From a virus: a DNA stretch of 34,864 nucleotides. This document shows, piece by piece, positions 19,231-25,615 of this stretch; the stretch's first letter is position 1; each line of letters opens with the position of its first letter. Made by a program: the position numbers and the translations under genes. The stretch covers positions 1 through 34,864 of the IMG/VR virus record IMGVR_UViG_3300047552_002041. The stretch is one strand, 5' to 3'. Below the pieces are notes generated by a model. It ran no database searches. It was given only the letters and a program-made list of their open reading frames with translations, and was not told the origin of the DNA.

Positions 19231-19693
19231 TGTCAAGCTCCTCCTGCTCGGACTTGCTTAGACGACGGCCAGCAGGCTTCGGCACTGATGCAGTCCATTC
19301 GACGGCAGTTTGAACTTGAGCGTCCTTGACTGGGTCCTCAGACATGCCGGCATAGTTCTTCGCAGCAAATTGAAGAATTTTATCAGAGGTCTGAGCGCGC
19401 TTGATGACAAGAGCCTTCAGTCTTGGAGCAATCGAAGCTTTGCCGAGCTGAAAGTCCTCCTTGAAGTTATCATAGAAGGAGGTGTGATTCACGCCAAGCA
19501 TAGCGCTAATCTCAAGAGCTGTGCTGCCAGCTGCGGCGAGCTTGTAGATGCTTCGCCGATTGATGACGAGGTCTGGTCGCTTATTGCGCTTCAGCGTGAC
19601 CCACTCATCAAGCGTGTTCAGCTTGGCGAGGTCCTCTTCATCAACGCCCTCAACTGGGAACATCGTCTTTGAAAGTTCTGCTGGTGGCGTCAT
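19220..19693 (-). CDS. terS: Terminase small subunit
   Basis: 157 residues. A helix-turn-helix ('IYKLAAAGSTALEISAMLGVNHTSFYDNF', about residues 49-77) followed by helical 'RLKALVIKRAQTSDKILQFAAKNYAGMSE' is typical of small terminases, which recognise the packaging site. Overlaps the large subunit and is ATGA-coupled to the HNH gene upstream. Confidence 0.88.
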   Translation of the reverse strand: MTPPAELSKTMFPVEGVDEEDLAKLNTLDEWVTLKRNKRPDLVINRRSIYKLAAAGSTALEISAMLGVNHTSFYDNFKEDFQLGKASIAPRLKALVIKRAQTSDKILQFAAKNYAGMSEDPVKDAQVQTAVEWTASVPKPAGRRLSKSEQEELDNEA

Positions 19694-20055
19694 TTCTTGA
19701 CCTTTTTATCAACACCAGCGAGCTTGAACGGCAGTATCTTAGCAGTCTTGCGCTTTGGCTTCTTTGGTGCTGCAAGTGGATGCAGCAGTGGCAATGAGTC
19801 CTTCGTCAGATACTGATGAAGGCCTTTAGCAAAGGAAAGGACATCGAAGTTCCCGTAGCGATGACCTGACTCGGTCTTGCCGAGCACGCTGTTGCAGCTG
19901 CGGTGAATCAGGCCACGAAGAAGGCCGCTCGAGTGAGAATGGTCAGAACACGCCTCTGAAAGCTCCATCGGTCTGCCACACAGGCGACACAGATTGCTCT
20001 TAGCGTATTCTTTGATGCGCCACTCTGATAGCTGACGCCGATTTAGTTGTTCCAT
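19690..20055 (-). CDS. HNH endonuclease, endonuclease VII-like
   Basis: 121 residues. 'CRLCGRPMELSEACSDHSHSSGLLRGLIHRSCNSVLG' gives the endonuclease VII (PF02945) pattern: C-x2-C, D-H-x-H, R-G-L-(I), x2-C-N, L-G. The usual Cys in 'RGLIC' is His here but the later Cys is kept. A basic C-terminal tail (KKPKRKTAK...KKVKK) may bind DNA. Position next to terminase suggests either help in packaging (HNH genes often sit beside terminases) or a mobile gene. Two hairpins with an identical loop precede its start. Confidence 0.9.
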   Translation of the reverse strand: MEQLNRRQLSEWRIKEYAKSNLCRLCGRPMELSEACSDHSHSSGLLRGLIHRSCNSVLGKTESGHRYGNFDVLSFAKGLHQYLTKDSLPLLHPLAAPKKPKRKTAKILPFKLAGVDKKVKK

Positions 20056-21746: not shown

Positions 21747-21775
21747 TTCACATCAGTAAATAGAAGTGATAGAAT
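21747..21775 (+). promoter_or_regulatory. Early promoter of the replication gene
   Basis: TTCACA (21747-21752), 17-nt spacer, TAGAAT (21770-21775): five of six and five of six matches to sigma70 consensus. The start of transcription would be near 21782, one base before the leader hairpin begins. It drives the plus-strand early genes. Confidence 0.7.
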
Positions 21776-21782
21776 GTAATCT

Positions 21783-21891
21783 GAGTTCTGTTAGAAGTCG
21801 TCGGCAATGTCGGCCAGACTTCAGTGATGCAATGTCACCCATTCTCTTGGGCCGACGCCTTCTAACAGAGCTCCTCCGTCTGGCCGCGGAG
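21783..21891 (+). ncRNA. Structured leader RNA with loop-loop complementarity
   Basis: Arms 21783-21805 and 21851-21873 pair over 23 positions with one G-U and one mismatch. A second hairpin, CTCCG (21874-21878) and CGGAG (21887-21891), encloses an 8-nt loop TCTGGCCG. That loop is complementary to CGGCCAGA (21811-21818) in the large loop; with the adjoining base the match is nine. The first hairpin begins at the predicted transcript start and the second ends 22 nt before the gene's ATG. Kissing-loop or pseudoknot leaders of this kind control initiator synthesis in IncB/IncI-type plasmids; the analogy is inference. Confidence 0.65.
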
Positions 21892-21906
21892 AATCAAGAG
21901 AATTGG

Positions 21907-21930
21907 ATGAGCGATGAAATTAGAACTTAG
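21907..21930 (+). CDS. Possible 7-residue leader peptide (MSDEIRT)
   Basis: ATG 21907 opens a seven-codon frame that ends at TAG 21928-21930, overlapping the replication gene start at 21914 in another frame. AAGAG lies 6 nt upstream, a better spacing than for ATG 21914. Translation may be coupled; it may also be chance. Confidence 0.25.
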   Translation: MSDEIRT

Positions 21931-23074
21931 ACAGAAGCCTGTCTTCACACGAGCTACCTGGAAGGTTGCCGACCGAGTGCTGAATCTCGGCTATGAGATG
22001 ATGTTCTCTCGTGGTGGCCGCAAGAGATTGCGAGCCGAAGAGCTTCGAGCAATCACAGGACGAGGGCCTTCAGAGAAGTTCTTCAGGTCCATGTTCAGAA
22101 CTCACGGCGGATACAAGGTCGGCGAGCACTCCTATGCCTACGAACCGACTGAGAAGTTCTGGGAATTCGAGGCGGAAGTTACCACAATAGAATGTTCTCA
22201 CGAAGGCGGAAGTTACCATAATAGAATTCTCCCTGGGTGCGAGGCGGAAGTTACCACCATTAGATGGAGCGAGCGACGAGCGAAGGACCGACTGCTGCTC
22301 TTTGCTTCTTCTCTTGGCTTTGACTTCTCTGTTCATCCGCCAGCTCGAAGGGATTATGCCTCAGTCATTGACAATCGCTGCTATGACTGGTGGGTGAATC
22401 TGCGAGGTGACAATCGTGACAGACTGTTCTTGAGAACCTATGGCGACGGCTGGAACTACGACATCAAGTCAGCGAAGCCGACGATTCTGCTTCAAGATTA
22501 TGACAGACTGGACTTGAGTCACATCCCGGCTGCACTTCGAGGACGAGCTGAACTGCCGTTCTGGAGAGAGCTAGTTCAGAACAAGGACGAGTTCAGACGA
22601 GGACTAGCAACTGAACTGAATGTGCCGATTTTGACGGCCAAGGACATCGCTCAGCGGCTGCTGAACAATTCAGCACCAGTTCTTCACTATGCCAACGGCT
22701 TCGTTGAGGATTTCGGGTGGGACTTGACTAACAGAATCATTCAGTCCCGAATCTGTCAAGGACTGATGAGTGACTACAGGTTCTTCTCAGACCAGATGCG
22801 ATGTGCTAAAGTCACCTACAGAGGTAATGGGGACAAGTCTCTTCGTAAGGGACAAGCTTCAACCTCGAACTACAACATCGGCGAGAACGAAGTGATGAAT
22901 GTAATTGAGCCACTCGTCACAGCGCCGACTTGGTTCATTCACGACGGCTTCTTCTCAGCTCAAAGACAGGAAGTTACCATAATAGAAGAAGCAATCCTCA
23001 AGGCGACAGGACGAGTAGTAGAAGTAAGTGAAGAGAGAATCCAAGCCAGTCGTGTCGCACTCTCCTCCGTCTAA
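21914..23074 (+). CDS. Replication initiator-type protein with iterons in its gene
   Basis: 386 residues; an in-frame stop at 21908 fixes the start at ATG 21914. The first 90 residues are basic and helical, possibly winged-helix DNA binding. The gene contains three iterons (codons about 86-118) and a fourth near its end, the arrangement of lambda O and many plasmid Rep genes. The C-terminal two thirds hold 'NYDIKSAKPTILLQDY', 'FWRELVQNKDEFRRGLATELNVP', 'AKDIAQRLLNNSAPVLHYANG' and 'TWFIHDGFFS' followed by a helix. This order loosely recalls motifs A, B and C of family A-type polymerases (D..., K/R..., HD). The polymerase resemblance is weak and unproven. It is the only replication candidate in the genome. 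Confidence 0.7.
   Translation: MKLELRQKPVFTRATWKVADRVLNLGYEMMFSRGGRKRLRAEELRAITGRGPSEKFFRSMFRTHGGYKVGEHSYAYEPTEKFWEFEAEVTTIECSHEGGSYHNRILPGCEAEVTTIRWSERRAKDRLLLFASSLGFDFSVHPPARRDYASVIDNRCYDWWVNLRGDNRDRLFLRTYGDGWNYDIKSAKPTILLQDYDRLDLSHIPAALRGRAELPFWRELVQNKDEFRRGLATELNVPILTAKDIAQRLLNNSAPVLHYANGFVEDFGWDLTNRIIQSRICQGLMSDYRFFSDQMRCAKVTYRGNGDKSLRKGQASTSNYNIGENEVMNVIEPLVTAPTWFIHDGFFSAQRQEVTIIEEAILKATGRVVEVSEERIQASRVALSSV
22171..22265 (+). repeat. Iterons 1-3, probable replication origin
   Basis: Three direct repeats of 23 nt at 22171-22193, 22205-22227 and 22243-22265. Consensus GGCGGAAGTTACCA followed by (C/T)AATAGAAT or CCATTAGAT, starts 34 and 38 nt apart. They lie inside the initiator gene, as in the lambda origin. 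Repeats 1 and 3 are read in one frame (EAEVTTI) and repeat 2 in another (GGSYHNRI), so DNA rather than protein sequence is conserved. Confidence 0.8.
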
Positions 23075-23127
23075 TGGTGGTAACTTCCGGTAACAAGGTT
23101 ACATCAGAAACCGGTAACTCCGGTAAC
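22967..23127 (+). repeat. Further iterons and GGTAAC boxes at the end of the initiator gene
   Basis: A fourth copy, CAGGAAGTTACCATAATAGAA, at 22967-22987 within the gene; an inverted copy at 23072-23089 (reverse complement CGGAAGTTACCACCATTA) at the stop codon; then GGTAAC at 23079, 23089, 23113 and 23122 and GGTTAC at 23097. The cluster runs into the promoter of the next gene, so the same protein may act on replication and transcription. Confidence 0.7.
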
Positions 23128-25102: not shown

Positions 25103-25615
25103 TTACAAGAGACCTGCTGCGCGGAGAAGGCCTACTCGTCTTTTGCCACAGCGAATAAGAGACACAAGAGAATGCGAGATTCCGTATCTCAGCATCAAAA
25201 CTTTTGGCGGTTCAGATGAAGTAAAGACATCAACGACCCAATCGGCGTCTTGGTCTTTTTTGTGGGTGCTCAACACCGCTTCGTTGAACTTATGCAACGA
25301 GGATTCAATGTCCCAATCGCTATTCAACAGCGTTTCACCACTTTTTATCGCCTTGTAGCGATGAAAGTGCTCTCGTTCTCTCCAATCACGCGTGGCTTCA
25401 ATTTGCCTCATCACAAAGGCTTGTTCGCCGTGAGTTGCCCAAGCTTCGTTGAATCTTTCTGTGTGGCTCTTTGTTCTTGCCGCCATGCGGTGCCCACGAA
25501 CTCTGGACTTTAGGTTCGCACTGCCGCCGATGTATCTTTGTCCTGTCGTGGTGCAGACTACTTCATAGACTCCTGGAGCCTTTGGAAGATTCTTTGATGA
25601 GAGACATGACGCCAT
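25103..25615 (-). CDS. GIY-YIG homing endonuclease, opposite strand in the early region
   Basis: 170 residues. 'PGVYEVVCTTTGQRYIGGSANLKSRVRGH' is a clear GIY-YIG domain start (GVY, YIG, Arg), with 'WREREHFHRYKAI' supplying the Glu region. C-terminal 'VLMLRYGISHSLVSLIRCGKRR' resembles a helix-turn-helix specificity domain. It is the only minus-strand gene in the plus-strand early block, consistent with insertion. Weak ribosome site; TATGAT at about 25650 (minus strand) could be its promoter. Confidence 0.92.
   Translation of the reverse strand: MASCLSSKNLPKAPGVYEVVCTTTGQRYIGGSANLKSRVRGHRMAARTKSHTERFNEAWATHGEQAFVMRQIEATRDWREREHFHRYKAIKSGETLLNSDWDIESSLHKFNEAVLSTHKKDQDADWVVDVFTSSEPPKVLMLRYGISHSLVSLIRCGKRRVGLLRAAGLL

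Follow-up and report, generated by a model that had tools for sequence, protein, structure and literature searches.

A kissing-loop leader RNA preceding a putative replication gene in two distantly related uncultivated phages

The window, which is the whole 34,864-base uncultivated virus record analysed here, carries a structured RNA leader immediately 5′ of an ORF on the plus strand (21914-23074, 386 aa) encoding a putative replication-type protein that matches no family. The same leader precedes a homologous ORF in a second virus record, L004. The pairing between its two loops is kept in both despite sequence change, which argues that the leader is probably a real control element in two distantly related uncultivated phages. 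We consider it a cis-acting structured leader RNA that would control translation initiation, either in response to the encoded protein or by simply setting the initiation rate, and give this reading a probability of about 0.5.

Fold of the leader in the window

Lambda-like tail, portal and terminase genes are located on the minus strand of the window. On the plus strand, a sigma-70-type promoter (TTCACA-17 nt-TGaTAGAAT, 21747-21775) with an extended -10 TG and 10/12 matches was found, where 0.5 sites this good are expected by chance per 600 nt. The predicted +1 at about 21782-21783 is the first base of a long stem, stem I, whose 5′ arm (21783-21805) begins at G21783 and whose 3′ arm is at 21851-21873. 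The 23 positions of stem I include one U.G pair and one U/C mismatch. No other hairpin in the window is of comparable strength.

The initial annotation had described a 23-position stem at the predicted transcript start, a large loop holding a sequence exactly complementary to the next hairpin, and a second hairpin ending 22 nt before the ATG. The stem and the second hairpin were recovered as described. The kissing sequence does lie inside stem I, but the loop is really a multiloop with small hairpins. These are mini-hairpin a (GUC-GGCCA-GAC, 21809-21819), whose loop is the kissing partner and which is the same element in the MFE folds of the window and L004, hairpin b (GUGAU-GCAAU-GUCAC, 21824-21838) and a weak third hairpin. 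The second hairpin (CUCCGU-CUGGCC-GCGGAG, 21874-21891), indicated by both the fold and the loop complementarity, abuts stem I, and 22 nt separate its 3′ end at 21891 from the ATG at 21914. The MFE of the leader was -57.1 kcal/mol (z -4.3), and 0 of 200 shuffled sequences were equally stable. The leader had no match above gathering to an Rfam covariance model; permissive Rfam searches returned sub-threshold matches only, mostly to microRNA hairpins.

Predicted loop-loop contact

A stretch of 9 nt, CGGCCAGAC (21811-21819) in the first loop, is complementary to GTCTGGCCG (21878-21886) in the second loop, so that the exact complement claimed before is present. Each of the two sequences occurs once. 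The segment at 21878-21886, GUCUGGCCG, comprises the loop and closing pairs of the second hairpin, and is the complement of loop a with its flank. Because CGGCCAGAC lies in and beside mini-hairpin a, the contact joins two hairpin loops. A 9-nt match to loop 2 was found in 3 of 10,000 shuffled first loops (P about 3e-4). Both kissing loops were predicted to be unpaired with a probability of at least 0.95 in the window and in L004, and the energies of the kissing duplexes were -17.1 and -13.4 kcal/mol.

A descriptor was built for a long hairpin followed closely by a short one, with 7 nt or more of complementarity between their loops. Of 131 long hairpins in the phage loci compared, only six fitted it. 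One was that of the window and one that of L004; two others belonged to a conserved element unrelated to the leader, and the last two to a repeat array.

The leader is conserved in one relative

L004 is a 38-kb virus record and the sole relative with the leader among the matches listed. Its protein of 343 aa, 26-28% identical to the ORF product of the window, is also the sole full-length relative among those matches. The two records have in common a terminase (31%) together with a small number of further genes. The gene upstream of the leader differs between them while the leader is the same. Homologue searches covered viral contigs (queries P0001, A1, the L004 protein, the L009 fragment and A6), genome contigs, phages, plasmids, terminase relatives by profile and the DNA pattern of the leader. 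Beyond L004, the matches listed held only a leaderless C-terminal fragment of a third ORF homologue (L009, 1-465), which is without a leader because the contig begins inside the gene; the leader DNA-pattern search listed the stem-loop in the L004 record and in no other relative.

The order of elements in L004 is TAGAAT, 6 nt, a 23-position stem (4516-4538/4580-4602) with two inner hairpins, a second hairpin and the ORF, which begins 16 nt after the second hairpin. The first stem base is again the predicted transcript start, with a poor -35 box. The inner hairpins are the mini-hairpin AGUC-GGGG-GACU followed by GCAUC-GGAA-GAUGU. The loop of the second hairpin (GGGC-UCCCCC-GCCC) complements that of the mini-hairpin (CGGGGGA/UCCCCCG); taken alone this 7-nt match is weak (P about 0.04 against G-rich shuffles). 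When L004 was folded alone the same helices were obtained (MFE -64.4 kcal/mol, z -4.7). Its stem-loop is unique among the long hairpins of the L004 genome and, as in the window, the strongest of its genome.

Paired changes were counted on a hand-set structure because MAFFT misaligned the short leaders. With stem I in register, 12 pairs were unchanged, 8 had changed on both sides in a compensatory manner, 1 had changed on one side and 2 were broken in one of the two sequences, and hairpin b had 3 both-sided changes; these counts come from two sequences and fall short of a full covariation test. The changed positions of the two stem I arms coincide more often than by chance (P 7e-4), and the effect was lost on sliding the register. 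The kissing pairs differ but stay paired, being GGCCA/UGGCC in the window and GGGG/CCCC in L004, so that the loop pairing is both kept and covarying in a related phage. On the plus strand G.U pairs are present and A.C are absent, which suggests that the selected and conserved molecule is probably the plus-strand RNA. Some primary sequence is also common to the two leaders (TAGAATG, GUCGG, UUCAGUG and GGATGANCNATG), which argues that they are probably homologous rather than convergent.

The encoded protein

The ORF product, probably a replication protein, had no match in Pfam, PHROG, NCBIfam or PDB, none in the plasmid search, and no known RNA-binding domain. AlphaFold2 models were of low confidence (pLDDT 38 and 49), and Foldseek gave no significant match with them. 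In one of these low-confidence models the N-terminal part contains a helical/beta-wing region, for which the matches to winged-helix regulators were weak and fell short of significance. Polymerase-like motifs (YDxxxxxPT..., HDGFF) were read in the protein by eye and carry no weight as evidence; HDGFF also occurs in the L009 fragment.

The 19-bp sequence GGAAGTTACCANNATWAGA occurs five times at 22174-23088, four times in direct and once in inverted orientation, against 0.04 expected in the window. The copies are confined to the ORF and the sequence just after it. These possible iterons resemble in placement the origin iterons inside lambda O. In the L004 homologue of the ORF, no repeats of this kind were found. 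The ORF of the window could be the replication gene or initiator.

Proposed control of translation initiation

The ribosome site was mostly unpaired in the folds of both the window and L004 (mean unpaired probability 0.54-0.67, calculated without the pseudoknot), and GGATGANCNATG is common to their ribosome-site regions. The mostly open site suggests that the default state is probably ON. Since kissing loops and ribosome sites are both predicted to be free, the picture is one of a folded leader next to an accessible ribosome site, not of a mask. We propose that stem I carries two small hairpins and that the kiss of loop a with the second-hairpin loop would form a compact body at the 5′ end of the mRNA. 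This body would end directly before the ribosome site, 16-22 nt 5′ of the start codon. It would control translation initiation and probably also shield the 5′ end from decay. Shut-off of the default ON state would come from a factor that binds the folded body and blocks initiation. The most likely factor would be the encoded protein itself, acting autogenously as T4 gp32 and gp43 do, rather than an antisense RNA. This candidate is suggested by the weak winged-helix-like model, the five 19-bp repeats in the ORF and the phage precedents (PMC3014915). Only analogy speaks for autogenous control against simple cis tuning.

In T4, gp32 acts on a pseudoknot and gp43 on a hairpin of their own leaders, both being phage replication genes operated by protein (PMC3014915). 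The leader of T4/RB69 gene 32 is pseudoknotted and lies upstream of the ribosome site of a replication-protein gene, and the predicted pseudoknot before the putative replication gene of the window may be compared with it. The T4/RB69 pseudoknot is however of another type: it is small and H-type, contains AU-rich UUAA repeats, lies 67 nt upstream and is bound by a single-strand binding protein (PMC3014915), whereas the window has a large stem with a loop-loop kiss before a protein without family match, no single-strand binding protein family being matched either. T4/RB69 gene 43 encodes the DNA polymerase, which reads an operator hairpin located 5′ of its own start codon (PMC3014915); the position is similar here. 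This operator is an 18/16-nt hairpin-loop without pseudoknot, unlike the window leader, and binding by the window protein is a proposal. By analogy, we favour the view that the logic of the leader would be closer to the T4 gene 32/43 operators than to a plasmid switch.

It had been suggested that a phage using such a device would be unusual. It is uncommon, but not unprecedented, because the pseudoknotted leader of T4 gene 32 controls a replication gene (PMC3014915); a 2010 review regarded it as possibly the sole viral pseudoknot of such use (PMC3014915). Very few systems are known in which a structured leader regulates a phage replication gene, and a conserved kissing-loop leader attached to an unclassified protein would represent a further RNA family. 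Tentatively, the 5′-end kissing complex might define a new phage leader RNA family and be an operator whose fold is read by a replication protein of a new type to limit its own synthesis. The leader may give a handle on replication control in lambda-like phages without recognised replication genes, and would offer a compact natural switch for testing.

Alternative explanations

The strongest rival, clearly less probable than the reading favoured above, is a passive leader acting in stability or ribosome standby. The 5′ stem at +1 would stabilise the mRNA or be an RNase III site, and the kiss would merely tune ribosome access with no regulator. In favour of such a leader, the first stem base coincides with the predicted +1 in both genomes, the stem has sufficient length for RNase III, and the ribosome site is mostly open in both predicted folds. 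A passive leader does not account, however, for the compensated conservation of both small hairpins and of the contact between the loops.

The initial annotation had likened the leader to those of IncB/IncI-type plasmids. In such a switch, formation of the pseudoknot turns on initiator translation, and the pseudoknot is in turn blocked by an antisense RNA from the opposite strand of stem I, which here would set copy number or lysis timing. The sequence of ColIb-P9 was used as a positive control for the loop complement and the promoter scan. In the repZ leader of this IncI-alpha plasmid, loop I (TGGCGG, 326-331) complements 6 nt (CCGCCA, 436-441) in the hairpin before repZ. In the window, likewise, the loop of a long stem-loop I can pair with that of a later hairpin just before the gene. 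This geometry speaks for a plasmid-type switch, as does an ORF of 32 codons (21832-21930) that overlaps the gene start by 16 nt, compared with 12 nt for RepY in ColIb. The arrangement differs in that stem I of ColIb-P9 lies within a leader of ~300 nt, with 75-80 nt between it and its partner, while here the stem is at +1, branched and abuts hairpin 2. The antisense Inc RNA is expected to start just beyond stem-loop I of ColIb-P9, and a relaxed sigma-70 consensus scan recovered a minus-strand promoter there, with its TSS at about 365. Applied to the window and L004, the same scan gave no minus-strand promoter in the vicinity of stem I, and in neither was a terminator for an antisense RNA found in the regions scanned. 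In the IncI/IncB/IncK group (ColIb) the ribosome site is reported to be masked until the pseudoknot forms and translation to be coupled to RepY (PMC8383071, PMC10724649), whereas masking was not seen in the window and L004 folds. Moreover, the 32-codon ORF has no SD and no counterpart in L004 in length or frame, and no match to a Rep family was obtained for the encoded protein. With no antisense promoter found near stem I, no masking in the predicted folds, a RepY-like ORF in the window only and no plasmid relative of the protein, the leader is not to be filed as IncI/IncB-type. What stands of the plasmid comparison is a structured leader with intramolecular loop-loop pairing, a fold that may be similar to IncI/IncB; the antisense switch as mechanism is not supported, and we regard it as unlikely.

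Slightly less likely still is an RNA that serves replication or transcription, either as a primer or origin RNA or as a put-like antitermination element that travels with RNA polymerase. The element does sit at the transcript start, and the iteron-like repeats in the window ORF mean that transcription crosses a possible origin. Against this, L004 is without such repeats, no terminators were found in the regions scanned, and the conserved closeness to the start codon suggests translation. Finally, a window-only switch, in which CCCATTCTCTTG (21838-21849, 3′ part of loop I) pairs with the ribosome-site segment CAAGAGAATTGG (21895-21906), shuts translation and competes with the kissing state, is very improbable: the two can pair at 11/12 positions, with -17.7 kcal/mol for the best duplex (P about 0.01 in the window), but the window MFE fold leaves the pairing unused, and it was dropped as main mechanism because L004 does not have it (P 0.26).

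Other elements

Two minus-strand ORFs of the window matched PHROG families, a GIY-YIG homing endonuclease-like ORF (25103-25615) and an endonuclease VII-like ORF (19690-20055). A different conserved hairpin pair, CTTTTAGATGTGAGCC...GGCTCACGGCTGAAAG, was noticed on the minus strand of L017, L019 and L020 (about 7.2-8.6 kb, locus coordinates). It was judged an element separate from the leader. It has no Rfam match, adjoins an ATG on the opposite strand and has covarying loop complements (TCGCACG/CGTGCGA and TCGCATG/CATGCGA). L012 and L093 contain an array of palindromic CCCCAGCNGCTGGGG-type repeats.
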